DNA of 64,000 nucleotides from Cytophagaceae bacterium (lineage in GTDB: Bacteria; Bacteroidota; Bacteroidia; Cytophagales; JAIYAX01): positions 1 to 64,000 of the forward strand of contig JAIYAX010000017.1 in the NCBI GenBank assembly GCA_027488815.1. Reading direction: 5' to 3'. Below are positions 17,401-53,691 of the stretch, one piece after another (within the stretch, counting starts at the first letter, position 1; each line of letters starts with the position of its first letter). The notes beneath the pieces are model-generated. The model was not told where the DNA came from, made no database searches, and saw nothing but the letters and a program-made list of their open reading frames with translations. Position numbers and translations under genes: made by a program.

Positions 17401-18416
17401 AGAGCAGCACGAGAACAGCCGTGACTGCAACCGTTAACCCATTGCCTTCTGCTCCTACAACACCTGCCCCTTCAGCGATCTGCACAGGAAACACCAGTAC
17501 CATCACCCCAACGGCTGGCGGAGCGAATTACAGGTTTTATGCTGCGAGTTCAGGTGGCAGCCCTTTGGCAGGTGGGAACGGAGTAGCCAGCTTTACCACA
17601 CCAACACTTTCCACTACAACCATTTACCATGTTTCTTCAGTAAGTGCAGCAGGTTGTGAGAGCAGCACCAGAACAGCAGTGGCAGTAACCGTGAACCCAT
17701 TGCCTTCAGCCCCGACAGCCCCTGCTCCGGCAGCGATCTGCGCAGGAAACACCGTTACCATTGCCCCTTCGGCTGGCGGAGCGAATTACAGGTTTTATGC
17801 TGCGAGTTCAGGTGGCAGCCCTTTGGCAGGTGGGAACGGAGTAGCCAGCTTTACCACACCAACACTTTCCACTACCACCACCTACCATGTGGCTTCGGTA
17901 AGTGCAGCAGCATGCGAGAGCAGCATCAGAACAGCAGTGACTGCAACTGTTAATCCCAATCCTTCCGTGGCGATCACCCAGTCGGGAGATACACTTCGTA
18001 CAACGACTTTGGGCAGCAGTTACCAGTGGTTCCGAAATAGTCTGCCGGTTTCAGGTGCTATTTCAGCCATTTTGGTGCCCACCCAGTCCGGTAGCTATAC
18101 TGTTCAGGTAACAAATGCCCAAGGGTGCACAGGTACTTCTCCGGCCGTTTCATTCATCGTAACAGGCCTACAGGCAGGCCATTCAATTGCTGAGAGCCTC
18201 AAAGTATATCCTAATCCCTTTATAAACCAGGTAAGGATAGAAGCCGGTACCCAATTTGAATACAGCTTGTTGGACATCACCGGAGCGGTTTTGCTAAATG
18301 GCCGATCTGAAGATCAACAATCTGAGTTGTACCTTGGCGAATTGGCATCAGGCACCTACTTCTTGAGATTGGTTTATGGGGAAGGTATTCAGGTTAAAAA
18401 ACTGATCAAGCAGTAA
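14403..18416 (+). CDS. Delta-60 propeller plus Ig-like repeat T9SS protein
   Basis: A 1337-residue secreted protein. A signal peptide ('LIMLISVPYANAQ') leads to about 13 delta-60 repeats (residues ~35-770). These are followed by an Ig-like segment and about four tandem Ig-like modules of ~86 residues (residues ~840-1190) with the signature 'ICAGNTSTITPTAGG ... YRFYAASSGG'. The end is a T9SS type A sorting domain ('KVYPNPF' to 'KKLIKQ'). It is expected at the cell surface, where propeller and Ig-like stalk domains often mediate adhesion; no ligand is known. The gene is divergent from the sensor kinase across a 240-bp gap and ends at a strong terminator. Confidence 0.92.
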   Translation: MKNYQIVCKQWLMVIGLIMLISVPYANAQFSLPGELDTSFNFGRPHNFFSDPNNPLPSVGASGIRDILIQPDGKILIAGFFTTYNGLTRNRIARLNDDGSVDGSFNPFGGASGAIETMALQSDGKILIGGNFTNYNGTARNRIARINTDGSLDLTFNPGSGANGTIWDIEVRSDGLIYIGGQFGSYNGTTVEGLTRLTAIGLKDATFNPSGTGLGGGVVYTLALYINDVIFAGSFSDYNGTARNNIARVNNTGGLTTFNTTGTGFDGTINDIEIYGSSAMLVVGNFSNYNGTSRNGIANISTNGPLITSGFSFGTGFGGSFIDIKTVKENFSIGRIIVGGSFTSYKGVTINNFIAIDYAGSEDPMFSAGGGADFSVNCLAVQSDGKALAAGNFSSFKNLPIRLPRINTNGSLDLTFNPITGVGRLANSTVYAVDEQSTTRIILGGQFTSYNGTLKNNILRTFSNGQLDASFISGSGADNTIRSLVVLTDDRILIGGDFLAYNITARNRIARLNINGDIDNTFNPGLGANGTVQAIAVQPDGRILIGGSFTQYAGNARNRIARLNTDGSLDASFSIGTGASSTIHTIAVQSDGKILIGGAFSTFNGTSISRVARLNSNGSLDTSFNIGTGTGAGSTVRSIVVQADGRIVIGGGFFTFNGISRNDIARLNTNGSLDTTFNPGSGTSDEVYTCKIQPDGKVLIGGTFGTFNGVNRIGIARLNAFGTLDQSFDPGTGASGNVYSTSLRSGKLLIGGTFETYDNIYRSRVARVLAPNCATINNTTTSSSICQGSQKLLTGTSTGTWVILSGSGSISGNVYTASGGSGSVTIYNELGGCTSPTVTFSVNPRPSAPTVPTPSAICAGNTATITPTAGAPFYRFYDTSTGFNALSNPVTSYTTPSLTATTTYYVASHALGCESNTRTAVTVTVNPLPGAPTTPTPSAICAGNTSTITPTAGGANYNFYAASSGGSPLTGGNGVASFTTPTLTTTTTYHVASVSAAGCESSTRTAVTATVNPLPSAPTTPAPSAICTGNTSTITPTAGGANYRFYAASSGGSPLAGGNGVASFTTPTLSTTTIYHVSSVSAAGCESSTRTAVAVTVNPLPSAPTAPAPAAICAGNTVTIAPSAGGANYRFYAASSGGSPLAGGNGVASFTTPTLSTTTTYHVASVSAAACESSIRTAVTATVNPNPSVAITQSGDTLRTTTLGSSYQWFRNSLPVSGAISAILVPTQSGSYTVQVTNAQGCTGTSPAVSFIVTGLQAGHSIAESLKVYPNPFINQVRIEAGTQFEYSLLDITGAVLLNGRSEDQQSELYLGELASGTYFLRLVYGEGIQVKKLIKQ
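17512..17875 (+). repeat. Ig-like modules with an exact 106-bp DNA duplication
   Basis: Bases 17512-17617 and 17770-17875 are identical by eye, at an offset of 258 bases (86 codons, one Ig-like module). The next upstream module (from ~17250) is clearly related but diverged. This points to recent duplication or gene conversion within the stalk. Confidence 0.85.
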
Positions 18417-30438: not shown

Positions 30439-32982
30439 ATGCATAAAGTGAAGCTGTTTACTTTAATTTTTCTGTTTGCCAACGCAAACCTAAAGGCTCA
30501 GTTTTCCCAACAAGGCCAATTGGATACAACCTTCAATTCAGCTGACAAAGGTTTTGGAAAGGGTGATGGACCAAATACATCTGTCTTTAAATCTATATTT
30601 CAACAAGATGGTAAATTGATAATTGTGGGTGCTTTTACCCGGTATAATGGGATAAGTCGAAACGGGATTGCACGTTTGAATATCGATGGTAGTCTGGATA
30701 CAAGTTTTAATCCGGGAAGTGGTATGATTGGAACGGGTACTGAAATACCGATTATGTATAGCGTTGCTCTTCAAACTGATGGAAAGATTATTATCGGAGG
30801 CAACTTCATAAGCTTTAATGGAACAGCCCGAAACAGAGTAGCAAGATTGAACTCTAACGGCAGCATTGACTCAGCCTTTAATTCTACAATTGGTGCAAAC
30901 AATACAGTCACTTATACGGCTCTCCAAACTGATGGAAAGATTGTTATTGGCGGTTTTTTTTCATCTTACAACGGTGTTTTTCGTAACAGCATAGCGAGAA
31001 TTAACAGTGATGGAAGCTTGGACACCACTTTCAATCCCGGGCTTGGGACAAATAATGGAATCAAGAGTATTGCGATTCAACCTGATGGGAAGATGATTAT
31101 AGGTGGTTTTTTTACAAGCTACAATTCCATACCTAGAAGTCGAATTACTAGGATAAACTCTAATGGCAGCCTTGATACTAGCTTTAACCCTGGTAGCGGG
31201 GCGAGTGGTACTGTTCATTCTATTACACTTCAGCCTGATGGCAAGTCAGTAATAGGTGGAGATTTTTATAGCTACAACAATACAATTCGTTCCTGTATTG
31301 CTCGCATAAATATTAATGGTAGTATTGATACAACATTTAATCAAGGAATTGGGCTATCTGGATGGCCTATTTTAACTGTTTATGCTACTACTATTCAGCC
31401 AGATGGCAAAGTGATCATTGGTGGAACTTTCACGAGCTTTGATAACACTCCTAGAAATAATATCGCTAGATTAAATTCAAATGGAAGCTTAGATCCAAGT
31501 TTTGAAACAGGTACAGGAACAGATGACCTGCTTTATAGTGCTTCTCTTCAAGCAGATGGAAAACTAGTTATAACTGGCAATTTCGCTTCTTACAGGGGTA
31601 GTTTCCGAAATGTAATTGCTCGTTTAAACTCAAATGGTACTTTAGACAATACTTTCAATCCTGGCAATGGAGTAAACGCCTTGATTTACTCAATTGGTAT
31701 ACAATCAGATGGTAAAACATTAATTGGGGGAGATTTTAGAGGAGTTAACGGAACTTTTCAAGGATTTTTCTCAAGGTTAAATTCTAATGGCAGCTTAGAT
31801 ACTTCATTTCAACAAGGTATTGGAGCAAATAATTCGGTTCGTTGCATTGCTCAGAAGACTGATGGGAAGATATTAATTGGTGGACATTTCACAAGATACA
31901 ATAACCAAACTAGAAATTATCTAACTCAGCTTAATTCTAATGGCAGCTTAGATACTACCGCTAGTTTAGTATTAAGTGCTGACTATCATGTATTTGCAAT
32001 TGATATTCAGCCAAATGGAAAAGTAGTTGTTGGGGGCGATTTTTTTAATATTAACTCAATATCCCGTAGACGAATTGCAAGGCTTGACACCAATGGAAGT
32101 GTAGATTTAAGTTTTAACTCAGGAGTTGGACCTAATTTTAGGATATTAACTGTTGCCAGTCAACCTGATGGAAAGATTGTAATTGGTGGTAGATTTACTG
32201 AATACAGTGGGACTCCAAGAATTCGAATAGCAAGGGTTAATTCTAATGGAAGTTTGGATACAACGTTTAATTCTGGCCTAGGTGCAACTGGAACTTCCTT
32301 TAATGAAGTTGCAACAATTAAACTACTAACAAACGGTAAGTTGTTAATTGGGGGTAACTTTACAAGTTATAATGGAACACCGACCAATCATTTCGCTCGT
32401 TTAAATTCAAATGGTAGCTTAGATACAACTTTTAACAATGGAACGGGGCCAAACAATCGTGTATTTTGTATCTTACTTCAACCTGATGGGAAGATTATAA
32501 TAGGTGGAACGTTCACAAGCTATAACGGTATCCCAATTAATAGAATTGCCCGCATCAATTCTGATGGAAGTTTGGATATGACCTTCAACCCTGGAGTTGC
32601 AGCAAATAGTACTGTTGTGGCGGCTTCATTTCAGCCAGACGGCAACTTGATCATAGGAGGAGATTTCACCAGCTACAACGGCATTGGACGAAACCGCATT
32701 GCAAGAATTTGGGGAGGAAATACTGTAGCAGGAGTAGGAGCAGAAACGTTAACCAACAATATCCCATTTGTGTATCCTAACCCTACGCAAGCTTTCATCC
32801 AAGTTAAGGTAGGCAGATCCTTTTCTTACACTTTACACTCAATACATGGTGTTTTACTAGATCAAGGAGTATCCAATGAGCCTGAAGTGACTCTGCATAC
32901 GAACGCCTACCGTTCAGGCACCTATTTGTTGAGAGTAGTAACAAGTGAGGGTATCTCTGTTCAAAAATTTATCAAAGAGTGA
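30439..32982 (+). CDS. Delta-60 repeat T9SS-secreted protein
   Basis: An 847-residue protein with a signal peptide ('LFTLIFLFANANLKAQ'), a starting 'LDTTFNSAD' strand and about 13 delta-60 repeats (DUF5122) with well-kept 'RIARLNSNGSLDTTF' blocks. The T9SS type A sorting domain at the end runs from 'VYPNPTQAFIQV' to 'VQKFIKE'. It is more regular than the tandem pair at the left edge and clearly separate from them. Expected location is the cell surface or medium; function unknown. It lies inside the repeat/TA region, between B4 and A3. Confidence 0.92.
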   Translation: MHKVKLFTLIFLFANANLKAQFSQQGQLDTTFNSADKGFGKGDGPNTSVFKSIFQQDGKLIIVGAFTRYNGISRNGIARLNIDGSLDTSFNPGSGMIGTGTEIPIMYSVALQTDGKIIIGGNFISFNGTARNRVARLNSNGSIDSAFNSTIGANNTVTYTALQTDGKIVIGGFFSSYNGVFRNSIARINSDGSLDTTFNPGLGTNNGIKSIAIQPDGKMIIGGFFTSYNSIPRSRITRINSNGSLDTSFNPGSGASGTVHSITLQPDGKSVIGGDFYSYNNTIRSCIARININGSIDTTFNQGIGLSGWPILTVYATTIQPDGKVIIGGTFTSFDNTPRNNIARLNSNGSLDPSFETGTGTDDLLYSASLQADGKLVITGNFASYRGSFRNVIARLNSNGTLDNTFNPGNGVNALIYSIGIQSDGKTLIGGDFRGVNGTFQGFFSRLNSNGSLDTSFQQGIGANNSVRCIAQKTDGKILIGGHFTRYNNQTRNYLTQLNSNGSLDTTASLVLSADYHVFAIDIQPNGKVVVGGDFFNINSISRRRIARLDTNGSVDLSFNSGVGPNFRILTVASQPDGKIVIGGRFTEYSGTPRIRIARVNSNGSLDTTFNSGLGATGTSFNEVATIKLLTNGKLLIGGNFTSYNGTPTNHFARLNSNGSLDTTFNNGTGPNNRVFCILLQPDGKIIIGGTFTSYNGIPINRIARINSDGSLDMTFNPGVAANSTVVAASFQPDGNLIIGGDFTSYNGIGRNRIARIWGGNTVAGVGAETLTNNIPFVYPNPTQAFIQVKVGRSFSYTLHSIHGVLLDQGVSNEPEVTLHTNAYRSGTYLLRVVTSEGISVQKFIKE

Positions 32983-40245: not shown

Positions 40246-43200
40246 ATGATCATTTCACACCTTATAGAGAACACAAAGAGAGCGCAGCCTGTAACGAGGG
40301 TCTTGATGATGATCCTGGGCCTGTTTTTCTCCTTGGTATTTTTTCAGACGGAGGCCAAAGCCCAATGCGCAGGTATTGACTCGGTGAGGTTTACCAATGT
40401 AACCTGTTTCGGTACTGCTACTGGAACGGTGACCGTATATGCCAGCACGGGTACGCCACCTTACACTTATTTGTTGCAGCGACTCACCGGTACAGGTTTT
40501 GTTTTGGCAGGAACCAGTTTTGGAAACCCAAGTACTACCCACACCTTCACAGGATTGGTTGCCGGAAACAATTACTTTGTCACCGTTGCCGATGATGATC
40601 CGGGATGTTCTGCCGTCATTTCTGCGTTTTTCAATATCACCCAACCACCTAATCTTGTTTTAACGCTCAGCAGTCGCATCAATGTGAATGGCTGCTTTGG
40701 GGATAGTACCGGTTCCATTACCGTTACAGCTACCGGAGGCACAGCACCTTATCAGTACAGCATCAACGGAGGAGCTTTTGGGCCCTCCAACACGTTCAGC
40801 AACCTGGCCGCAGGCAGTTACACCCTTACGGTGAGAGATCAGAACAACTGTACCCGCAATCTGCCGGTAAACATCACGCAGCCGACAGCAGTAAACCTGA
40901 GCATCAGTGCTCAAAGCAACATCTCCTGTTTCAACGCAGCAACAGGATCTTTTTCGGTAAGTACCACAGGCGGTGCTTTGCCTTATGCTTATTCGTTGAA
41001 TGGAGCGGCATTTGCTCCAACCTCAACTTTTAACAACCTCGCAGCGGGTAATTACACCGTCATTGTCAGGGACAGTGCAGGCTGCCGTGACACCGTAATG
41101 GCCACCATCACCCAGCCCCTGAGTGGAGTGACCCTTTCGCTAGACTCCACCCGGAACATCAGTTGCAATGGCGCTGCTGACGGTCGTCTGATCCTAAGTG
41201 CAAGCAATGGCGCTGTACCCTATCAATTTTCACTGAACGGTGGCGCTTTTGGTCCATCAGGAAGCTTTACTGGGCTGGCTCCAGGTACTTACACCATCAT
41301 TGTCAGGGACAATGGCAACTGTACAGATACGCTTCAAGCTACCCTAAGTCAACCGCCGGTACTAGACCTCAGCACAACTTCTGTGGTAGATAATCTTTGT
41401 TTTGGTGACAATTCAGGGGCGATCAATCTGGCGGCTACGGGTGGAACACCTGCCTACACTTATGCCCTGAATGCAGGAGCATTTGGGCCCGGAAACTCAT
41501 TTACTGCACTAGGCAGCGGTAGTTATGTGGCCAGAGTGCGAGATGCCAATGGATGTACAGATACTTTGGTGGTGAACATCAATCCCCCTGCGGATCTGCA
41601 AGTCATCACAGGGGCAGTGGTGAATGTGGCCTGTTTTGGACAAAACTCAGGCTCCTTCAGTGTGACAGGTTTAGGAGGAACAGCACCTTATCAATTTGCA
41701 TTCCAGAGCGGAGCATTTAGTGCAACCAATTCATTTAGCGGCTTGGCAGCAGGCTCTTACAGGATCAGGATAAGAGATTCAAATCTTTGCCAGGATAGCA
41801 TTTTTGTGAACATTACCCAGCCGGCATCAGCATTGGACATTTCAGTAAGCACTCAGGTTAATCCCAATTGCTTTGGAGCCAACAATGGAAGCATTCAGGT
41901 CAATGCAAGTGGTGGAACTGCACCTTATCAGTTCAGCATCAATGGAGGAGCTTTTGCAGCAGGCGGGAATTTTACAGGCTTGATAGCCGGAAACTATCTG
42001 ATCAGAACCCGTGATGCCAACAACTGTACCGACAGTGTGAGCGTAACCCTAAGCCAACCAACTTTGCTGGACATCAGCATCAGCTCACAGACCAATGTGG
42101 CCTGTTTTGGAGAGAGCAATGGGTCGGTGCAGCTTTCCGGCACCGGTGGCACAGCAGCTTATTCTTTTGCATTGAATGCCGGCCCGTTTCAAGCGAGCGG
42201 CAGTTTCACCGGACTTGCTGCCGGAAGCTACACAGCACGCATTCAGGATGTCAACGGATGTGCCGACACCCTTGTATTTAGCATCACCGCTCCACCCGCT
42301 CTTAATCTTGCCTCCGGCCCGGTAACACAAGTGGCCTGCTTTGGTTCTGCTACAGGAGCTTTTTCTGTGGTTGCAAGCGGGGGGCAAAGTCCTTATAGTT
42401 ATTCCATCAACGGCTCTCCGTTTGGCCCGACATTAAGTTTTACTAGCCTGACGGCCGGTTTATATAACGTAATTGTCAGAGATGCGAACTTGTGCAGTGA
42501 CACCGTGAGCGTGAACATCACCCAACCCGCCTCAGCCCTGGACATCAGCATTAGCAGCCAGACCAATGTGAGTTGTTTTGGTTCAGGCACCGGCAGCCTA
42601 AGCGTTTCCGGTAGCGGGGGTACAGCACCCTATCAGTACTCCATCAATGGGGGAGCATTCTCTGCCATAACAGTTTACAATGGATTGGCTGCTGGTTCCT
42701 ATACCTTGAGGGTAAGAGACGCTAACCTTTGTCTGGACAGTGTCATCGCTACCATTACCCAGCCTGCCACTGCGCTTGACATAGCCATCACTACACAATC
42801 AAACCTCACGTGCAATGGTGCAGGAAACGGTTCCATTACGGCAAATGCCTCCGGAGGTGTGGGGCCCTATACCTATTCGCTGAACGGGGGAGCTTTTCAG
42901 CCTACGGGAGTATTTAACTCATTGTCAGCAGGTACGTTTCAGCTTATTGCCAGAGATGCAAACGGTTGCCAGGATACAGTTATGGCCATCATTACCCAGC
43001 CTGCAGTGTTGGACCTAAGCCTCAGTAGCCAGATCAATAACCTATGCTTTGGTGAAAGCAACGGATCGATAACCTTAGCAGCTACAGGAGGCACAGGTCC
43101 TTATCAATATGCTTTGGGAGGCTCCGGTTTTGGAGCATCGGCGGGTTTCACAGGCCTTGCAGCAGGAAGCTACATGGCCAGAGTCAGGGATGCCCAACTT

Positions 43201-46200
43201 TGCACGGATTCGTTATTGGTCACCATCACTCAGCCCTCAGACCTGAATGTCACTGCCGGTACGATTACTCCGGTTTCATGTTTTGGTTCGGCAACCGGTG
43301 CCTTTACAGTGTCAGGTTCAGGAGGAACAAGCCCCTATCAGTTCAGCTTCAATGGTGGTGCATTTGCTTCCTTTACCAGCTTCAGTGGATTAGTTGCCGG
43401 TAACTACCGAGTGGTGATCAGAGATGCAAACAATTGCCGTGATTCAGTACAGGTGACCATCAGCCAGCCGGCTTCTGCACTGGACATCAGCCTGAGCAGT
43501 CAGACAAACCCAAGTTGTAATGGTTCTACTAATGGTAGTCTGAGCGTTGCAGGATCAGGAGGAACATCCCCTTATCTCTTTAGCCTGAACGGGGGCACTT
43601 TTATTGCCTCAGGAAATTTCACCGGTCTTTCAGCCGGAAACTACAGCATCGTTGTACGGGATGCGAACAATTGCACCGATACTGTTCAAGCGGTGTTAAG
43701 TCAGCCGGCTGCGATAGATGTGCAGGTGTTGAGCCAGACCAATAACCTTTGCTTCAATGACAACACTGGCAGCATCACCTTAACAGCATCTGGTGGGACA
43801 TTGCCCTACACCTTTGCTCTTAACTCCGGAGCCTTTGGGCCATCAGTGGTATTCAATTCTCTAACTTCAGGAAGCTATATCGGAAGAGTACAAGACACCA
43901 ACGGATGCAGGGACTCCATCAGCATCACTCTGACGGCTCCTCCGGCAATTGTGGCAAGTATTGGTTCGCAAACCAATGTAGCCTGTTTTGGGGAGGCAGG
44001 AGGAACTCTTACTGTAAGTGCTACAGGAGGCCAGGCGCCTTACAGCTACAGCCTAAATGGAGCAGCCTTTTCAGGAACATCCGCTTTTAGCAGCCTGAGT
44101 GCCGGGCTTTATCAGGTTATCGTGAGAGATGCCAATAACTGTACCGACACTGTTTCTGCCACAATCACTCAGCCGGCCTCTGCTGTAAGTCTGAGCCTTA
44201 CAAGTAAAACAGATGTTGCCTGCTTTGGTCAAAACACTGGATCCATCAATGTAAACGCAACAGGAGGAGTTTCTCCCTACTCTTTCTCTATAAACGGTGC
44301 CGCATTCCAGCCTTTAAGTGTTTTTAGTTCATTGACTTCAGGTACCTATTCCATCGTGGTAAGAGATGCAAACGCTTGTAGAGATACCCTTGAAGTCATC
44401 ATTTTACAACCTTCTACGCCCCTGGCCATTAGTCTGGTTTCTCAGACACAGGTGCTTTGTTTTGGGGATAGTACCGGAACCTTTACTGTTGCAGCTGCCG
44501 GGGGAACAGCCCCTTACCAGTTTAGTGTCAACGGTGGAGCTTTTTCGTCCGTTACGACCTATACCAACAGACCTGCCGGGAATTACAGTGTAGTACTTCG
44601 AGATGCCAATGGGTGTACTGACACATTAGATATCAACATCACCCAGCCTGGTCTGGCTTTGAATATTTCCATTGGTACTCAGGTAAATGTGACCTGTTCC
44701 GGAGGAAATTCAGGGTTGTTAAACCTTAGTGGAAGCGGAGGTACTGCGCCTTATCAATTTAGCATCAATGGAGGCACCTTTCAGAGCTCAGGTACCTTTG
44801 CCGGCTTGAGTGCCGGGACCTACAATTTAGCTATCCGTGATGCAAACAACTGTATTTCAGGAGCCACGGCCATCATCACTGAGCCATCAGCACTTAATCT
44901 TTCCATCGCTTCACAGGTTAATGTAGCTTGTTTTGGGGCCTCTACCGGTAGTATCAATGCAAGTGCATCGGGCGGTACTGCACCTTATCAATACTCATTC
45001 AATGGCTCTGCTTTCGGAGCCTCATCCAGTTTCACAGGGCTTTCGGCGGGAACCTACAACCTGGTGCTCAGAGATGCTAATAACTGCCAGGTTAGCCAAA
45101 CGGTCAACATTACCCAACCGGCAAGTGCTTTGAGTTTGTCAGTTGCTTCACAGACCAACGTGCTCTGCAATGGAGCCTCCACCGGAGCCGTGACACTTTC
45201 TGCACTTGGCGGAACAGCACCTTATACTTATTCCATTGATGGGGTCAATTTTGTGCCCGGGGCGACATTCACTGCATTATCATTTGGAGCCTATACGTTC
45301 AGAGTACGAGATGCAAACAATTGCCTGAGCACGGTCAATGTCAATATTTCTCAGCCGGCTTCAGCAGTGACTTTTAATGCCATTGGTATTAACCCAAGCA
45401 GCTGTACTTCATCTGACGGGCAAATCGTGATCAGCGGTACAACCGGAGGAACAGCTCCTTACAGCTACAGCATTGACGGAACCTCCTTTGGGCCGGTGAG
45501 TACTTTTACCGGACTGGGGAACGGAACCTATTTCGTGTTTGTACGAGATGCCAATAACTGTACGGTTAACACAACAGTAAGCATTTCCAGCCCCGGCACT
45601 TTATCGGCTTTGGCCACAGCAGACTCAGTAGATTGCTTTGGCGGTAATGATGGATCCATCAGCCTCAGCGGACTATCCGGAGGCAATGGCAACTACAGTT
45701 TTTCACTCAATGGCGGGCCTTTCCAAACCAGTGCAGTGTTTGCCGGACTTACATCAGGCCTTTACACGGTAGCCGTCAGAGACAACCCTGTATCCTGTAC
45801 CATTAACCTGAATGTGCAGGTAAATCAGCCTCTTGATTTGACGATCGCTCTGGTTTCACAAACGAATAACACCTGTCGTGGTGGTCAGGAGGGGGTTATT
45901 CAGGTGAATGGAAATGGTGGCACAAGTCCATACAGCTATTCCATCAATGGCTCTTCGTTTTCCACATCTTCCATGTTTGACAGCCTTCCGGCGGGTAACT
46001 ATGTGATTCGTATCAGAGACAGCAGAGCTTGCGTGGATAGCCTGGCGGTGAGCATTTCTCAGCCTGCTAGTGGAGTTTCTTTGGCGGTCAGTTCAGTGCA
46101 GCAATTGAGCTGCCAGGGTGATAGCACAGGAGCGATCACAGTAGCCGCCTCAGGTGGAACATCGCCTTATTCTTTTTCGATCAACGGAGGTCCTTTTGCC

Positions 46201-49200
46201 GCTTCCAATAGTTTCAGTCAGTTAACAGCAGGAAATTACACCCTAACCGTTAGAGATGTAAACGGATGTGATACCAGCCTAAATGTTTCAATCAGTGCCC
46301 CTTCTCCTCTGCTGCTGAATGTAGTCGCTACCACACAAGTGACCTGCTTTGGGGGGGGCAATGGACGGATTGAAGTAGCTGCATTCGGTGGCACGGCACC
46401 TTATACTTATTCAATTAATGCAAGTGCATTTGCCTCAGTTTCTGTTTTCAATGGATTGACTGCCGCCAACTATCAAATCAGGGTGAGGGATGCAAATAAC
46501 TGTGAAGCTATCCAAAATGTGAGCATCAGCCAGCCTGCTGCCCTGGCATTTCTTGTAAATGCCAATGTCAACCCCGGTTGTTTTGGAGAAAGTGTATGGT
46601 CAGTGAGTTTTAGTCCATTTGGAGGTACGGCACCCTATACTTTTCGTTTTTTAGATACTGCTTTTTCTGCGCAAACCAGCTTTACAAGTGTTTTACCCGG
46701 ATTTTACTTTGTGACAATCCGAGACAGCAACGCTTGTGAGCTGACCAGCCCACTTATCTTACCAAACCCATATACCCAAATTAACATTAATGTTGTGGGC
46801 ACAACTCAGGTAATCTGTCATGGAGACTCAAGCGGTTCGATTTCGGTAAATGCTAGTGGGGGTGTAGGAGGCTATCAGTTTTCGATCAATGGAGGCATTT
46901 TTCAACCCTCAGGAATGTTTACGCAGCTTCCTGCGGGTACTTACAATCTGGCGGCCAGAGACTCATTTGGCTGTACAGCTCAAACTGTTGTAAACATAAA
47001 CCAGCCATTAGCACCTGTTTCATTTGACGTAGTCTTCAGCAATCCAAGCACCTGTAGCAGCAATGATGGCAGCATCAGCCTTATTAACTTGAATGGGGGA
47101 GTTTCTCCATATAGTTACAGTTTGGGAGGAGGTACTTATGTTGCCGGCTCAACATTTAACGGGCTTGGTAATGGCAGCTATTTGTTGTTTGTAAGAGATG
47201 CAAACTCCTGTACTACAGCGGCAGATACTGTAATCCTAAGCTCTCCCGGAGGCTTATCGGCAACCATCAGCAGCAGTAACGTGAGCTGTTTTGGAGGTAA
47301 CAATGGTAGTGTTAGCGTCAGTGCTGTAGCCGGAGGGAATGGCAATTTTCAATATTCTTTAAATGGAGGGCCTTTTGGTGGTTCATCAAGCTTTACAGGA
47401 CTCACGGCAGGTGTCTATACTGTTGTAGTCAGAGACTCTCCATTCACTTGTGAGATCACCTTCAATGCCAATATCACCCAGCCGGATAGTCTGAACCTGA
47501 GCATTAACACGACAGATGTGCTTTGCTTTGGCGAGCCAAGTGGTCAACTTAATGCATCAGCTACTGGAGGCATTGGGCCCTATACTTTCAGTTTGAATGC
47601 AGGCCCATTTTTGTCCGTACCAAGTTTCAACGGACTAGCGGCAGGAACGTATACCCTTGCCCTCAGGGATGCCAACAGCTGCGAAGTTCAGCAAGTGGTA
47701 CTCATTAACCAGCCTGGCTCAGCACTTAACGCAACTATCGCCAGCATAAGTCAGGTGGCCTGTTTTGGTGACTCATCAGGATCCCTGAGCATAAGTGCAA
47801 GCGGAGGCTCAGCCCCCTACATGTACAGCCTGCATGGCGGGCCATTTGTAGCAAGTAATACCTTCAATGGGCTTGCAGCCGGCAATTACACCCTTACAGT
47901 TAGAGACTCCAACAACTGTGATACTACCGTTAATTTCAGTATCACAGCACCAGCACAGGCCTTGAGTCTTTCAGTGGGTTCTGTGAGCAGAGTGAATTGT
48001 TTTGGTGATACCAATGGTTCAGTAAGCCTTGCAGCCTCCGGTGGAACAGCACCTTACCAGTTTGCCTTCAATGGAAGTTCCTTTGGCAGTCTGACTACCT
48101 TTGGCAGCCTGACAGCCGGTACCTATGTCGCCATTGTGAGAGATGCCAATGCTTGCACAGACACACTTGTGGTGCTTGTTCCCGGTCCTACGGCCCCAAT
48201 CAACTATTCAGTAACCTCTGTTTCTCCCAGCAGTTGCTCAGTTAATGATGGAAGTATTTCGTTCACAGGCTTGAGCGGTGGCACAGCTCCTTACCTCTTT
48301 AGCATCGACGGAGGTTCAAGTTTTGTGGCAAGTTCCGGGTTCACCGGACTGGGTAATGGAACTTATTTCCTTCAGGTAAGGGATTCCAATGCCTGTAGCA
48401 ATGGGCAGGTAGCCATTTTAAATGGTCCGGGAGCCATAACGGCAACTGCCAACGTAAGTCAGGTAACTTGTAATGGAACTGCAACCGGAACCATTAACAT
48501 CAGTGGAGTAAGCGGTGGAAACGGAAACTATCAGTATTCCATTAACGGAGGCACTTTCCAGACCAGTCCAAATTTTACCGGGCTGACAGCAGGGGCTTAT
48601 CTGATTCAGGTAAGAGACCAGCCGGTAAGCTGTACCATTACGCTCAATGCTACTCTTACCCAGCCATCCGCTCTATCGACAAATGTGCTACAGCAGGTGA
48701 ACCCATCTTGTACAGGAGCAGCCAACGGAAGGCTGGAAATACAAGCCATAGGTGGTACCCCGGGTTACCGGTACTCTGTTAATGGGGGAACCTTCCAGAG
48801 CTCCGGTCTTTTCAACTCACTGACCGCAGGAAACTACACCATTGTGGTAAGAGACAGCAATGCTTGTGAAACGACGTTAAGCAGATCGCTCACAGCACCT
48901 TCAGGTCTTGTGTTAACGGCCAGCACCATCACACCGGTTACCTGCTTTGGAGACAGCAGCGCCCAGGTGAGCCTGAGTACTTCCGGTGGAACCGCACCCT
49001 ATACCTTCTCTTCCAACGGAATCACATTCCAGACCTCTCCTGTATTTTCGAGTTTGGCATCGGGTAGTTACATGTTTGTGGTAAGAGATTCAAACCTGTG
49101 CACCTCCACTTTAGCGCTTACCATCAGCCAGCCTGCAACTCCTTTACAATTAGCAGCATCGGTTTCGGCTCAGGTGCTTTGCTTTGGAGCCAATTCAGGA

Positions 49201-52200
49201 GCAATCACGGCATCAGGCCTGGGAGGCACTGCCCCGTATGAGTTTCGTTTGAATGGAGGCTCTTTTGTTCCCAATGGTAATTTTAGTAGCCTTCCCGCTG
49301 GTACCTATCTGCTTACGGTAAGAGATGCTTCAGGCTGTGTTGCGGATAGTAGCCTAACCATTTCAGGCCCCGGTTCAGGAGTGGTATTTACGAGTCTTGG
49401 GTTAAATCCTGCCTCTTGCTCTGTTAACAATGGAAGTGTAAGGGTTGCCAGCATTAGTGGGGGTGTACCTCCGTACCAATACAGTCTGGGAGGAGTAAGC
49501 TACCAGAGTGATAGTAATTTCACAGGCTTGACAAGTGGAACCTATGCGCTATTTGCCAGAGATGCAAATGGTTGTGTTGCAGGTCCAGACCTTGTCTCAA
49601 TTGCAGCACCGGGCGGGCTTTCGGCTCAGGTGACCAGCAATAATCCAACTTGTTTTGGACAGGCTAATGGACAGATTCGGATTAGAAATATCAGCGGCGG
49701 GTCGGGTCAATACCGTTTCTCACTTAATGGCTCTGCTCCAAGCACAGATAGCACGTTCAACAATTTGGTTGCAGGAAGTTATACGCTAGTCGTTACTGAT
49801 ACTCCGGCATCCTGTAGTTCTACCTTTAATGTGATCCTCGTTAACCCTGACAGCATTAGCATCACATTGGTTGCTCAGCAGAACGCAAGGTGTACAGGTG
49901 ACAGCAGTGGAAGTTTCTCTGTACTTGCCAATGGAGGAAGAGCTCCATATAGCTACGCACTGAACGGAGGCTCTGCTCAAGTAAGTGGAAGCTTCAGCGG
50001 GCTGGCTGCAGGAGTCTACCTTGTTACAGTAACGGACAGTCTGGGATGTACCCAAAACCTAAACATCAGTATACAAAATCAACCGGCTTCAGGTGCAGTG
50101 AGTTTGGCGAGCCTTTTGAGGCCAAGCTGTCTTGGGGCTTCTGACGGAGCTTTGAGCTATACCGTTACCGGAACAGCGACACCCTACCAGTTTTCATTGA
50201 ATGGCAGTGCTTATTCAAGCCAAAGCAGTTTCAATGGACTTTCTGCAGGCATGTTTATCCTTACCGTCATGGACAGCAATAATTGCTTGCTGGGCAGAAC
50301 CGATATCCTTAGCCAACCTGACAGCATTTCGATATTTCCGCAAATCAGCAATGCTGTAGGTTGTGGAAGCAGCAGCGGTAGGGTAGTGGTAAATGCAAGT
50401 GGAGGAACAGCTCCATATCGGTATTCTCTAAATGGGGGGCCATTGGTGAGCAACGATACCTTTAATGCCCTTGCTCCGGGTTTTTACACAGTTCAGGTTG
50501 TTGATAGTCTCAATTGCTCCAACACCCGCAGCTTTGTCATCAATGCAACAGGAACGATTAGCGGAACGGTATTCCAGACTCCTGTGCTTTGCAACGGAGT
50601 AGCCAATGGGCAAGCCTTGGTATTCAACGTAACAGGTGGTTCAGGAAATTACCAGTACTCCATCAATGGAACCAGTTTCCAAACCTCACCATTGTTCAGC
50701 AGCCTGGCTTTAGGACCTTATCTGGTTTACGTAAGAGATGCCAATGATACCCTTTGTGTTTCAACTTTCCCGATCACGGTAGCCGCTCAGTTTACCGTCA
50801 GTGGTCTGGTGGTAGTGACCGGGTCTTCCTGCACCGCTGCTGATGGCCAGATTGAGTTCTCCATCTCAGGAGGTACAGCCCCTTATCAATACAGCGTGGA
50901 CTCAGGGCTTAGTTTTGTAGCTGGAAATATCTTTACCGGACTTGCAGCAGGCACTTACCATTTAGTGGTGAGAGATGCCAATAATTGCACGTTTAACCGT
51001 ACGGTTGTTTTACCGGGCGCTCCTGTGATTCAACCATTTGCATCTGTTATCAGCCAGGTTACCTGTGCGGGCCAACCCAATGGAGTTGTTCGGGTGGACA
51101 GTGTTTCTGGATCGGTAGGGCCTTTCCTTTACTCAATTGATGGGGTCAACTTTGTATCCTCAAATGTATTCACCGGACTTTCGGCGGATACCCTTGTGCT
51201 ACGTGTTCAGGATATTGGCTCAGGTTGCATTGCCACAGACACATTGCTGATCAATGGTCCTGCATTACTTGAAATTCAGGCTCAGGTGTTAAGTCAGGCG
51301 GGTTGCGCAGGAGCAAGCAATGGCTTAATTTCCGTGCAGGCTGTGGGAGGTATTGGGAGCTATCAGTACAGGATCAATAACGAAGTCTGGTCTTCAGACA
51401 CTCTGTTTAGCGGTTTGGCTGCGGGCAGCTACACCCTTTGGGTTTCTGATAGCTTGAATTGTACCGACTCCGTTGTCTTGACGTTGAACCCATCTGATAC
51501 CCTGCAAGTTCAGTTCACAAGTTCAGGAGCCAGCACTTGCAATACCAATGATGCCTTCATTCAAATCCAATCCGTTTCAGGTGGAACAGCTCCCTATCGG
51601 TTTGCCATCAATGGGGGTGCAGCTTCAGGTCAGACCCTATTCAACGGGCTGGCGGCTGGAAATTACCAACTCACGGTCTTGGATACGAATAATTGCAGCA
51701 GGAATTATTCCCTGGTGCTTCCCTCCGGAAGTGGTTTAGCCGCTCAGGCCAATTCACAAAGAACCAGTTGCAGAGGAACCTCCACAGGCAGCATCAGAGT
51801 TACTCAGTTCTCAGGTGGACTTGCCCCATACCAGTTTAGCCTCGATAGTGTTAATTTCCAACCTGACTCAGTATTCACCGGATTGACTGCCGGCAACTAC
51901 AGGGTAGTGGTAAGGTCAGCAGACTCATGTCAGGTGATCTTGCAAGTGGCGATTCAGGATGCAGACTCCCTGGTGGCCGCAGTCAACTTTGTTAAAGATG
52001 TAAGTTGCCGGGAAGCCAATGATGGTATTCTGGATCTGAATGCCTCCGGAGGTACCCCCGGATACCGTTTCTCATTGGATGGGGTTAGTTATGTCTCTTC
52101 TGACTTGTTTATCGGCCTTAGCCCCAGAGTTGATACTGCTTTTGTTCAGGATAGTGCTGGATGTATCGTAGAAGTGCCGTTTATCATCGGACAGCCTGAC

Positions 52201-53691
52201 TCAGTAGGCTATGTCGTGACGGTAACCCCGGCCAACACCTGCAATGCAGCAACCGGAACGGCTGTTATTTCCAATATCACCGGAGGCCAGGCACCTTACC
52301 AGTTGAGCATCAATGGTGGAAGCACTTTTAGTGACACGACCACATTTGCCGGATTGACCAATGGCAATTATACCCTCATCATCCGTGACTCAGTAGGTTG
52401 TTTGTATACTTCTCAGTTTACCATCGCTGTACCCGGCGGGCTTCAACTGGGTATAAGCCAGATGATCCAACCCACTTGCTTTGGTTCAAACAATGGGGAA
52501 ATACGCATAGGAAACATTACCGGAGGAGCCAGGCCGTACCAGTTTAGCATCGACGGAGGTCTTTCTTTTGGAAACGACTCGGTATTAACCAATCTGATCA
52601 GCTTTGTGTATACCGTAGTGATCCGGGATGCAAACAACTGTACCTATACCTACATCTATAACCTTGGTCAGCCCTCCAACATCAATTTCAATGTAAATCA
52701 GCAACAACCGGCTACCTGTGACTCATCCAATGGATCCGTGATCGTGACCAATGTGGTCGGTGGCATTACACCTTACAGTTACAGGATCGACTACAATGGG
52801 TCAACGTTCCAGCCCAGCCCTATATTTACCGGTATACCGGGAGGGAACTATCAGGTAACGGTTCAAGACGCTACCGGCCTTTGTGAAGTCACCAAGCTGG
52901 TGGTGGTAGCGGGTAACCCCGGAATTACGTTTGACTTTGAAGTGACCGACGCCCTTTGTTTCGGAGGCAATGATGGTGAGCTAAAGCTATTCAATATTCA
53001 GGGAGGCTTGCCGCCCTACCGTGCAGGACTTGACACTTCTCAGAATTACCTGGTAGTGGATCAGACCAACTCCGTTACGTTCAGCAACCTATTGCCAGGC
53101 AGCTACAACTATCAGATCAGAGACGAGGATGGATGTACCTATAAGCTTCCTCCGATTGAAGTGGGTGCCCCTGACTCCATTGGCTTTATGGTGAGAAACG
53201 TTCAGTTAAGCCGAAGAGACAGTGCGGAAGGTATCCTTTATGTTTTCGACATCAACGGTGGTGCTGAGCCTTACCGATACTCGATCGATGGCATCAACTA
53301 CCTGCCATTTGAGTATAGTCTGAGCACCTTTGAGTATACAGCGATGATTAAAAACCTAAGGGTCGGAAACTACACCGTGTTTGTTCAGGATACCAATGGA
53401 TGTACCAATGCCGCACGAGTGAGTGTTCAACCTTACCAGTTTGCCAGCAGGTTTGAAATTCCAAATGTGTTCACGCCCAACGGTGATGGTTTCAACGAAA
53501 CCTTTGTGATCAACCGACTGCCTTCTAACTCCAAGTTGAAAATTTTTGCCCGAAATGGACGCCTGGTGTATAGCAGTGAGGACTACACCAATGATTGGGA
53601 TGGAGAAGGCTGGCCAAATGGAGTATATTTCTACTCGATGACGATACCTAACCTGGGTGATTTTGCAGGCTGGGTTGAGATCAAGCGTTAG
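40246..53691 (+). CDS. Giant SprB-repeat adhesin with T9SS type B C-terminus
   Basis: A 4481-residue surface protein. The ATG at 40246 precedes a signal peptide ('MMILGLFFSLVFFQTEAKAQ'); a TTG 12 bases upstream is less likely. By my count about 55 SprB-type repeats (PF13573, ~75-85 residues) fill the protein. Each has 'xxVxCFGxxxGS' at the start, 'GGTAPYQYSINGG' in the middle and 'VRDANNCxD ... ITQP' at the end. Two Cys per repeat probably form a disulfide. The last ~80 residues ('IPNVFTPNGDGFNETF' to 'GWVEIKR') are the gliding motility-associated CHU_C / T9SS type B sorting domain. SprB in Flavobacterium is the mobile gliding adhesin; here that role is inferred. It ends overlapping the convergent luxC-like gene by 3 bases. 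Confidence 0.93.
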   Translation: MIISHLIENTKRAQPVTRVLMMILGLFFSLVFFQTEAKAQCAGIDSVRFTNVTCFGTATGTVTVYASTGTPPYTYLLQRLTGTGFVLAGTSFGNPSTTHTFTGLVAGNNYFVTVADDDPGCSAVISAFFNITQPPNLVLTLSSRINVNGCFGDSTGSITVTATGGTAPYQYSINGGAFGPSNTFSNLAAGSYTLTVRDQNNCTRNLPVNITQPTAVNLSISAQSNISCFNAATGSFSVSTTGGALPYAYSLNGAAFAPTSTFNNLAAGNYTVIVRDSAGCRDTVMATITQPLSGVTLSLDSTRNISCNGAADGRLILSASNGAVPYQFSLNGGAFGPSGSFTGLAPGTYTIIVRDNGNCTDTLQATLSQPPVLDLSTTSVVDNLCFGDNSGAINLAATGGTPAYTYALNAGAFGPGNSFTALGSGSYVARVRDANGCTDTLVVNINPPADLQVITGAVVNVACFGQNSGSFSVTGLGGTAPYQFAFQSGAFSATNSFSGLAAGSYRIRIRDSNLCQDSIFVNITQPASALDISVSTQVNPNCFGANNGSIQVNASGGTAPYQFSINGGAFAAGGNFTGLIAGNYLIRTRDANNCTDSVSVTLSQPTLLDISISSQTNVACFGESNGSVQLSGTGGTAAYSFALNAGPFQASGSFTGLAAGSYTARIQDVNGCADTLVFSITAPPALNLASGPVTQVACFGSATGAFSVVASGGQSPYSYSINGSPFGPTLSFTSLTAGLYNVIVRDANLCSDTVSVNITQPASALDISISSQTNVSCFGSGTGSLSVSGSGGTAPYQYSINGGAFSAITVYNGLAAGSYTLRVRDANLCLDSVIATITQPATALDIAITTQSNLTCNGAGNGSITANASGGVGPYTYSLNGGAFQPTGVFNSLSAGTFQLIARDANGCQDTVMAIITQPAVLDLSLSSQINNLCFGESNGSITLAATGGTGPYQYALGGSGFGASAGFTGLAAGSYMARVRDAQLCTDSLLVTITQPSDLNVTAGTITPVSCFGSATGAFTVSGSGGTSPYQFSFNGGAFASFTSFSGLVAGNYRVVIRDANNCRDSVQVTISQPASALDISLSSQTNPSCNGSTNGSLSVAGSGGTSPYLFSLNGGTFIASGNFTGLSAGNYSIVVRDANNCTDTVQAVLSQPAAIDVQVLSQTNNLCFNDNTGSITLTASGGTLPYTFALNSGAFGPSVVFNSLTSGSYIGRVQDTNGCRDSISITLTAPPAIVASIGSQTNVACFGEAGGTLTVSATGGQAPYSYSLNGAAFSGTSAFSSLSAGLYQVIVRDANNCTDTVSATITQPASAVSLSLTSKTDVACFGQNTGSINVNATGGVSPYSFSINGAAFQPLSVFSSLTSGTYSIVVRDANACRDTLEVIILQPSTPLAISLVSQTQVLCFGDSTGTFTVAAAGGTAPYQFSVNGGAFSSVTTYTNRPAGNYSVVLRDANGCTDTLDINITQPGLALNISIGTQVNVTCSGGNSGLLNLSGSGGTAPYQFSINGGTFQSSGTFAGLSAGTYNLAIRDANNCISGATAIITEPSALNLSIASQVNVACFGASTGSINASASGGTAPYQYSFNGSAFGASSSFTGLSAGTYNLVLRDANNCQVSQTVNITQPASALSLSVASQTNVLCNGASTGAVTLSALGGTAPYTYSIDGVNFVPGATFTALSFGAYTFRVRDANNCLSTVNVNISQPASAVTFNAIGINPSSCTSSDGQIVISGTTGGTAPYSYSIDGTSFGPVSTFTGLGNGTYFVFVRDANNCTVNTTVSISSPGTLSALATADSVDCFGGNDGSISLSGLSGGNGNYSFSLNGGPFQTSAVFAGLTSGLYTVAVRDNPVSCTINLNVQVNQPLDLTIALVSQTNNTCRGGQEGVIQVNGNGGTSPYSYSINGSSFSTSSMFDSLPAGNYVIRIRDSRACVDSLAVSISQPASGVSLAVSSVQQLSCQGDSTGAITVAASGGTSPYSFSINGGPFAASNSFSQLTAGNYTLTVRDVNGCDTSLNVSISAPSPLLLNVVATTQVTCFGGGNGRIEVAAFGGTAPYTYSINASAFASVSVFNGLTAANYQIRVRDANNCEAIQNVSISQPAALAFLVNANVNPGCFGESVWSVSFSPFGGTAPYTFRFLDTAFSAQTSFTSVLPGFYFVTIRDSNACELTSPLILPNPYTQININVVGTTQVICHGDSSGSISVNASGGVGGYQFSINGGIFQPSGMFTQLPAGTYNLAARDSFGCTAQTVVNINQPLAPVSFDVVFSNPSTCSSNDGSISLINLNGGVSPYSYSLGGGTYVAGSTFNGLGNGSYLLFVRDANSCTTAADTVILSSPGGLSATISSSNVSCFGGNNGSVSVSAVAGGNGNFQYSLNGGPFGGSSSFTGLTAGVYTVVVRDSPFTCEITFNANITQPDSLNLSINTTDVLCFGEPSGQLNASATGGIGPYTFSLNAGPFLSVPSFNGLAAGTYTLALRDANSCEVQQVVLINQPGSALNATIASISQVACFGDSSGSLSISASGGSAPYMYSLHGGPFVASNTFNGLAAGNYTLTVRDSNNCDTTVNFSITAPAQALSLSVGSVSRVNCFGDTNGSVSLAASGGTAPYQFAFNGSSFGSLTTFGSLTAGTYVAIVRDANACTDTLVVLVPGPTAPINYSVTSVSPSSCSVNDGSISFTGLSGGTAPYLFSIDGGSSFVASSGFTGLGNGTYFLQVRDSNACSNGQVAILNGPGAITATANVSQVTCNGTATGTINISGVSGGNGNYQYSINGGTFQTSPNFTGLTAGAYLIQVRDQPVSCTITLNATLTQPSALSTNVLQQVNPSCTGAANGRLEIQAIGGTPGYRYSVNGGTFQSSGLFNSLTAGNYTIVVRDSNACETTLSRSLTAPSGLVLTASTITPVTCFGDSSAQVSLSTSGGTAPYTFSSNGITFQTSPVFSSLASGSYMFVVRDSNLCTSTLALTISQPATPLQLAASVSAQVLCFGANSGAITASGLGGTAPYEFRLNGGSFVPNGNFSSLPAGTYLLTVRDASGCVADSSLTISGPGSGVVFTSLGLNPASCSVNNGSVRVASISGGVPPYQYSLGGVSYQSDSNFTGLTSGTYALFARDANGCVAGPDLVSIAAPGGLSAQVTSNNPTCFGQANGQIRIRNISGGSGQYRFSLNGSAPSTDSTFNNLVAGSYTLVVTDTPASCSSTFNVILVNPDSISITLVAQQNARCTGDSSGSFSVLANGGRAPYSYALNGGSAQVSGSFSGLAAGVYLVTVTDSLGCTQNLNISIQNQPASGAVSLASLLRPSCLGASDGALSYTVTGTATPYQFSLNGSAYSSQSSFNGLSAGMFILTVMDSNNCLLGRTDILSQPDSISIFPQISNAVGCGSSSGRVVVNASGGTAPYRYSLNGGPLVSNDTFNALAPGFYTVQVVDSLNCSNTRSFVINATGTISGTVFQTPVLCNGVANGQALVFNVTGGSGNYQYSINGTSFQTSPLFSSLALGPYLVYVRDANDTLCVSTFPITVAAQFTVSGLVVVTGSSCTAADGQIEFSISGGTAPYQYSVDSGLSFVAGNIFTGLAAGTYHLVVRDANNCTFNRTVVLPGAPVIQPFASVISQVTCAGQPNGVVRVDSVSGSVGPFLYSIDGVNFVSSNVFTGLSADTLVLRVQDIGSGCIATDTLLINGPALLEIQAQVLSQAGCAGASNGLISVQAVGGIGSYQYRINNEVWSSDTLFSGLAAGSYTLWVSDSLNCTDSVVLTLNPSDTLQVQFTSSGASTCNTNDAFIQIQSVSGGTAPYRFAINGGAASGQTLFNGLAAGNYQLTVLDTNNCSRNYSLVLPSGSGLAAQANSQRTSCRGTSTGSIRVTQFSGGLAPYQFSLDSVNFQPDSVFTGLTAGNYRVVVRSADSCQVILQVAIQDADSLVAAVNFVKDVSCREANDGILDLNASGGTPGYRFSLDGVSYVSSDLFIGLSPRVDTAFVQDSAGCIVEVPFIIGQPDSVGYVVTVTPANTCNAATGTAVISNITGGQAPYQLSINGGSTFSDTTTFAGLTNGNYTLIIRDSVGCLYTSQFTIAVPGGLQLGISQMIQPTCFGSNNGEIRIGNITGGARPYQFSIDGGLSFGNDSVLTNLISFVYTVVIRDANNCTYTYIYNLGQPSNINFNVNQQQPATCDSSNGSVIVTNVVGGITPYSYRIDYNGSTFQPSPIFTGIPGGNYQVTVQDATGLCEVTKLVVVAGNPGITFDFEVTDALCFGGNDGELKLFNIQGGLPPYRAGLDTSQNYLVVDQTNSVTFSNLLPGSYNYQIRDEDGCTYKLPPIEVGAPDSIGFMVRNVQLSRRDSAEGILYVFDINGGAEPYRYSIDGINYLPFEYSLSTFEYTAMIKNLRVGNYTVFVQDTNGCTNAARVSVQPYQFASRFEIPNVFTPNGDGFNETFVINRLPSNSKLKIFARNGRLVYSSEDYTNDWDGEGWPNGVYFYSMTIPNLGDFAGWVEIKR

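Follow-up and report, generated by a model that had tools for sequence, protein, structure and literature searches.

How a single-chain adhesin of thousands of residues might bear force without unfolding is the question raised by a giant gene in the window, as we call the whole 64,000-nucleotide stretch of DNA analysed here. The encoded protein is an array of 55 repeats of ~79 aa each with a regular ladder of cysteines, and an answer turns on which cysteine bonds with which. Our results indicate that it is very probably a T9SS-secreted fibre of 55 Ig/FN3-like SprB beads, in which the first conserved cysteine (C1) of each bead would be stapled to the second (C2) of the bead that follows. The features referred to below, all on the plus strand, are:

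40246..53691, plus strand: giant ORF, open from ATG, encoding an SprB-repeat T9SS type B substrate of 4481 aa
40246..40362, plus strand: putative signal peptide, residues 1–39, a hydrophobic N-terminus recognised by eye that ends in AKA before Q
40366..40368, plus strand: Cys41, an extra N-terminal cysteine, proposed to cap the array by pairing with C121 (C2 in the first repeat)
40390..53196, plus strand: repeats 1–54, each with C1 (strands A/B) and C2 (strands F/G), strands placed from the AlphaFold2 model of repeats 19–22
45388..45618, plus strand: repeat 22, the first of the short-loop subtype (C1, four residues, G)
47038, 48220, 49402, 50347, 50815, 51523, 52225 and 52702, plus strand: approximate starts of the other short-loop repeats
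53197..53445, plus strand: terminal repeat 55, with C1 lost and C2 (C4386) retained
53455..53688, plus strand: T9SS type B C-terminal sorting domain, residues 4404–4481 (CHU_C, TIGR04131)

The SprB-type repeats proposed in the first-pass annotation are confirmed by PF13573 (Pfam SprB), which matches 48 stretches of the protein above its cut-off of 28 bits (1364.8 bits), and the T9SS secretion that it proposed is borne out by a type B tail scoring above the cut-offs of both CHU_C (64.6 bits against 27) and TIGR04131 (38 bits against 35). Given the Pfam score and the regularity of the cysteine ladder, a chance origin of the repeats is not at issue. An alternative TTG start 12 nt upstream would give 4485 aa. 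A six-frame search of the 3.37 Mb genome with PF13573 returned 53 matches, 49 of them above cut-off, and by profile search the giant ORF is the sole SprB-repeat protein found there. An ortholog search based on the C-terminus returned two distant loci and nothing closer. The window also encodes three beta-propeller proteins of the DUF5122 kind, each with a type A T9SS tail (2175–4721, 14403–18416 and 30439–32982), the second of which additionally carries four Ig_7 domains.

The protein contains 110 cysteines: C41, 54 pairs of C1 and C2, and finally C4386, which serves as C2 in a repeat 55 without C1, so that the earlier count of about 54 repeats with a first cysteine and one degenerate last repeat was correct. 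Within a repeat C1 and C2 are 52 aa apart in 40 of 54 cases, and C2 lies 25–27 aa before the following C1 in 52 of 53. A second cysteine had been seen in nearly every repeat, which was real but understated, as C2 is present in all 55. Nor is the arrangement unusual for a T9SS substrate, as had been thought; both cysteines occur in 1494 of 1641 repeats (about 91%) from 104 proteins, the window's own included, with 143 repeats lacking one and four lacking both, making the pair the family norm. The same annotation read the pair as one disulfide per module; the cysteines do amount to one disulfide's worth per module, but a bond within the module is unsupported by co-loss and coupling, as set out below.

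Three pairings of C1 and C2 can be compared. A bond between C1 and C2 of the same repeat, in classic Ig style, uses the two cysteines that each repeat contains and is the simplest reading of the repeat alignment. A bond between nearest cysteines, C2(i)–C1(i+1), has the shortest separation (25–29 residues) and would close a loop at each junction. The third pairing, C1(i)–C2(i+1), would join partners 129–148 residues apart across every linker. Natural losses in related proteins favour the last. In a discovery set of 54 proteins and 720 junctions, C1(i) and C2(i+1) were both present at 696, both lost at 16 and discordant at 8, against 29.4 ± 3.2 discordant junctions in shuffles that ignore the shared ancestry of the proteins, and none of 3000 shuffles was as low. 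The procedure and prediction were then fixed in writing before new genomes were fetched, and in this held-out set of 54 proteins the 763 junctions divided into 711 with both cysteines, 17 with neither and 35 discordant, against 59.3 ± 2.9 discordant in shuffles and again with 0 of 3000 shuffles as low. Nearest cysteines, by comparison, were discordant 41 times in the discovery set (shuffles 41.2), and no less often than shuffles in the held-out set. For C1 and C2 of the same repeat, joint loss was seen in only one of 616 internal repeats of the discovery set (33 discordant) and one of 631 of the held-out set (57 discordant, shuffles 51.8), and discordance was no lower than in shuffles in either set.

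The co-loss result is stable across four window definitions, and in a scan of offsets from −4 to +4 the +1 offset is the strongest by far; once four periodic proteins are removed it is the sole significantly enriched offset (9 junctions with both lost versus 2.1). Both-lost junctions come from 13 proteins for C1(i)–C2(i+1), 4 for nearest cysteines and 6 for the same repeat. The losses are non-contiguous, with C1(i) and C2(i+1) gone and the intervening C2(i) and C1(i+1) kept. Discordant junctions total 43 of 1483 (8 + 35), mostly with one cysteine missing and perhaps replaced by another. As a positive control, an extra cysteine pair within the repeat (columns 7 and 41) co-occurs 73 times in 73, with 0 of 780 discordant. 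This pair, linking the A–B loop to the E–F turn in L059, L061, L062 and L112, appears to strengthen these beads a second time. From the discovery set, 14 short loci that overlapped longer loci were excluded, as were 120 matches without both anchors, and from the held-out set 137 matches without both anchors and short loci inside longer regions; the combined tally of 104 proteins and the coupling analysis excluded the near-duplicates L179, L180, L153 and L194.

Individual relatives illustrate the pattern. Repeats of L067 alternate between C1-only and C2-only, and those of L107 mostly cycle through C2-only, C1-only and both; the two patterns fit C1(i)–C2(i+1) almost without orphans. L067 was read initially as a nearest-cysteine bond and later as a same-repeat bond with junction rescue, readings that were dropped because the +1 pairing leaves far fewer orphans. 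The held-out discordance of L192 arises from an additional strand-G cysteine counted as C2, and with this set apart the protein mostly alternates; besides its alternating staples it has further cysteines in strand G and the next strand A, which suggests another bond type at the linker.

Direct coupling analysis agrees with the co-loss data. In a mean-field treatment of 947 neighbouring repeat pairs with cysteines masked, C1(i)–C2(i+1) comes first among 5476 interdomain couplings, with z 20.8. This coupling also ranks 1 in the held-out subset, and ranks 2, behind only a same-column pair, both in the discovery subset and when the four periodic proteins are taken out. No signal was seen at offset +2. 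The same-repeat C1–C2 coupling ranks 1983 of 2346, and from 376 to 2309 across subsets at offset +1, while that of nearest cysteines falls from rank 4 to 919 once the periodic proteins are removed. The two strongest within-domain couplings, one per domain of the pair, are both between columns 7 and 41.

If staples join neighbours, the last repeat of an array should need C2 and not C1. In arrays that abut a T9SS tail (rows sorted by hand), the last repeat lacks C1 in 21 of 24 (discovery 10/13, held-out 11/11) and keeps C2 in all 24, compared with 55 of 1247 internal repeats lacking C1; since many of these arrays belong to one family (f26), the independent number is smaller than 24. An extra cysteine stands just before the tail in each of the three exceptions (two ORFs of L066, and L087). 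Array ends away from the tail follow no clear rule, a last repeat without C1 being found in 8 of 29 discovery arrays and 1 of 23 held-out arrays. First repeats that retain C2 have an upstream cysteine within 70 aa in 19 of 25 and 11 of 15 cases, a frequency whose base rate is uncontrolled and which we do not count as evidence. Under the staple rule, repeat 55 would lack C1 because there is no repeat 56, and C41 would be present because C2 of repeat 1 needs a partner. Among the three rules, only C1(i)–C2(i+1) pairs all 110 cysteines of the window protein; the same-repeat rule leaves C41 and C4386 unpaired, and the nearest-cysteine rule C4297 and C4386.

An AlphaFold2 model of repeats 19–22, with 48 other rows of the window array as alignment, has a pLDDT of 90.8 and a pTM of 0.62. 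Each modelled bead has seven strands (A, B, C, (C'), E, F, G); C1 follows strand A, and C2 lies in the stretch between F and G. The best structural neighbours of the four-bead model are fragments of GhpA (Z 9–11, rmsd 5–7 over 288–305 residues), closely followed by fibronectin III tandems. In FN3-type topology the ends of strands A and F lie at opposite poles, and the A–B loop of one bead faces the F–G loop of the next. From this topology and the structural similarity we infer that the bond would run from C1 at the C-terminal pole of bead i (A–B loop) to C2 at the N-terminal pole of bead i+1 (F–G loop).

That one disulfide closes each module is highly unlikely; beyond the rarity of co-loss and the low coupling, predicted strands and the FN3-type topology would place the two cysteines of a repeat at opposite poles, and the extra pair of column 7 and column 41 ties the A–B loop to the E–F turn, at the end of strand F far from C2. 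The bond between nearest cysteines can be regarded as extremely unlikely, even if the alternation in L067, taken alone, fits it equally well, given discordance at shuffled levels in both sets and a coupling that does not survive removal of the periodic proteins.

It is also barely credible that the cysteines are structural or metal-binding thiols, or form lateral intermolecular cross-links, with the coupling reflecting some other contact. Virions assemble in the reducing cytosol, and tandem SprB arrays on viral contigs retain C1 and C2 (among them L214, LR756502.1 509453–526361; L250, L252, L263 and L275), an observation in favour of such a role. However, the coupling is pairwise and confined to two specific positions, the non-contiguous losses are not what replacement of a segment or loose packing contacts would produce, and lateral links need no end rule. 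Several of the viral-contig arrays start with a repeat without C2, as the end rule predicts. A separate prediction, that phage-borne arrays would have lost their cysteines, failed or was equivocal (59 CC, 13 Cx, 9 xC and 55 xx in 61 ORFs, with 65 matches dropped and most xx being single Ig domains and not arrays).

With C1(i)–C2(i+1) staples in place, the array of the window protein would become a covalent ladder offering two edge-disjoint paths of covalent bonds along its length, capped at bead 1 by a Cys41–C121 bond and ending in a bead 55 that has no need of C1 where no bead follows. In a graph calculation, the shortest covalent route between residues 41 and 4403 takes 758 residues when stapled and 4362 when unbonded, or 273 nm and 1570 nm at 0.36 nm per residue; same-repeat bonds would give 1566 residues. 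Beads of this kind are about 3.5–4 nm long. Because the stapled path is so short, tension should be unable to unravel the fibre, which would stretch little beyond its folded length, a property suited to a load-bearing surface fibre.

Loop lengths offer weak support for C1(i)–C2(i+1) staples. The repeat after a short-loop repeat has an F–G loop 1–2 residues longer in 6 of 9 cases, compared with 1 of 45 others (Fisher 2e-5), and in the window this compensation is restricted to offset +1; phylum-wide, enrichment of short A–B loops with long F–G loops is found also at offsets −1 and −3, so that the effect is clear in the window and unspecific elsewhere. The short-loop repeats are 22, 29, 34, 39, 43, 45, 48, 51 and 53, all within the C-terminal 34 repeats of the array (window 40390–53445). 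The second, NPSSC subtype described previously is therefore real, and all eight positions given for it (22, 29, 34, 39, 45, 48, 51, 53) are correct, the ninth copy, repeat 43, having been hidden by misalignment. The recurrence every 5–12 repeats proposed with it was wrong; the spacings are 7, 5, 5, 4, 2, 3, 3 and 2, and their shrinkage toward the C-terminus refutes a fixed higher-order period of the subtype. A 7-repeat similarity does exist but is weaker, with repeat similarity peaking at lag 7, mainly between repeats 5–9 and 12–16, and strongest in the first 20 repeats. Likeness to the repeat consensus declines steadily from the N- to the C-terminus (Spearman −0.76).

The array seems to be old and its DNA is not homogenised, as the first-pass annotation had suggested. 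Repeats share a mean of 37% protein identity, and their DNA has a mean pairwise nucleotide identity of 0.45 (maximum 0.60). Identical residues use the same codon at a frequency of 0.374 versus 0.354 expected from codon usage; this agreement at background argues against recent homogenisation.

We also considered whether the bacterium uses the window protein as its moving SprB adhesin for gliding, which appears unlikely. GldJ (TIGR03530, 651.8 bits), GldK and GldD score above cut-off in the genome, GldB is near it (184.7 of 190 bits), and the type B tail is present, all of which would suit a gliding role. Against it, the gene lacks an adjacent sprF, and its neighbours are housekeeping genes: an aconitase gene lies upstream, and the downstream genes include an ORF of 338 aa without a match, one resembling ferredoxins and one for an S46 peptidase, the ferredoxin-like ORF and the more distant neighbours having been named by eye. 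Five PorP/SprF genes occur in the genome, none on the contig of the giant gene (contig C2), and none of the five paralogues has the C-X-C tail motif reported for SprF. There are, moreover, 22 CHU_C-tail matches in the genome to compete for the role, among them a protein of 3848 aa whose gene lies between two PorP/SprF genes. This competitor (L121, 5398–16944) is a second giant type B protein, with other Cys-bearing repeats. PorP/SprF proteins at L121 17228–18298 and L122 14844–15917 end with a single cysteine in a PCP tail in place of C-X-C. The name 'SprB-type adhesin' thus holds for the repeats and is unsupported in its gliding-adhesin sense; with no adjacent sprF and no C-X-C carrier, we refer to the protein as an SprB-repeat surface fibre and not as a proven gliding adhesin. 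An adhesive role is likely.

The same stapled architecture appears to extend across Bacteroidota SprB-repeat proteins, and we consider it reasonably probable that these proteins, gliding adhesins included, are covalent ladders with end caps in which each bead is stapled from its A–B loop to the next F–G loop. SprB-repeat fibres are widespread in the Bacteroidota, and in one sampled family 130 of 149 genomes had matches. If the model is correct, the conserved cysteine pair would be recast as load-bearing architecture, in a fibre of ~0.2 micrometre with two parallel covalent backbones and no extension beyond roughly its folded length, and a moving adhesin would have a way to bear gliding load without unfolding. 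The staple would also give a rule by which the cysteine patterns of many giant proteins without annotation, and the ends of their arrays, could be read.

Several known systems bear comparison. GhpA is the grappling hook of Aureispira, as reportedly described by Lien et al. in 2024. Its structures (PDB 9fls, 9flp, 9fly and 9flw) are the best structural matches to the four-bead model of the window protein and, as proposed for it, show a filament of Ig-like beads; GhpA is a heptamer, unlike the window fibre, and a sequence search found no match between the two, the likeness being in fold only. In Siglecs, a disulfide between domains 1 and 2 stiffens one junction between Ig-like domains, and in RTX adhesins the linkers are stiffened by calcium. 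Both resemble the window fibre in stiffening junctions between tandem Ig-like domains, but Siglecs do so at one junction only and RTX adhesins use calcium instead of disulfides.

In the mostly open-access journal literature searched, including passages of PMC12635249, PMC9870892, PMC12618676, PMC10619420 and PMC13319060, SprB repeats were nowhere described as joined by interdomain disulfides. SprB of Flavobacterium johnsoniae is a gliding adhesin of 6497 aa (PMC9870892, PMC12635249). Compared by description, it shares SprB repeats, giant size and a T9SS type B tail with the window protein, which differs in having no adjacent sprF and no carrier with a C-X-C tail. The giant Mobiluncus adhesin contains 51 Ig-like domains with covalent cross-links and is likewise a tandem Ig-like fibre reinforced covalently; its cross-links (ester, isopeptide and disulfide) are intradomain and its linkers flexible, whereas the window staples would span the linkers (PMC10619420). 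A disulfide between SprF and GldK bears gliding load in Bacteroidota; that bond joins carrier to track, whereas the window staples would lie inside the adhesin fibre itself (PMC12635249).
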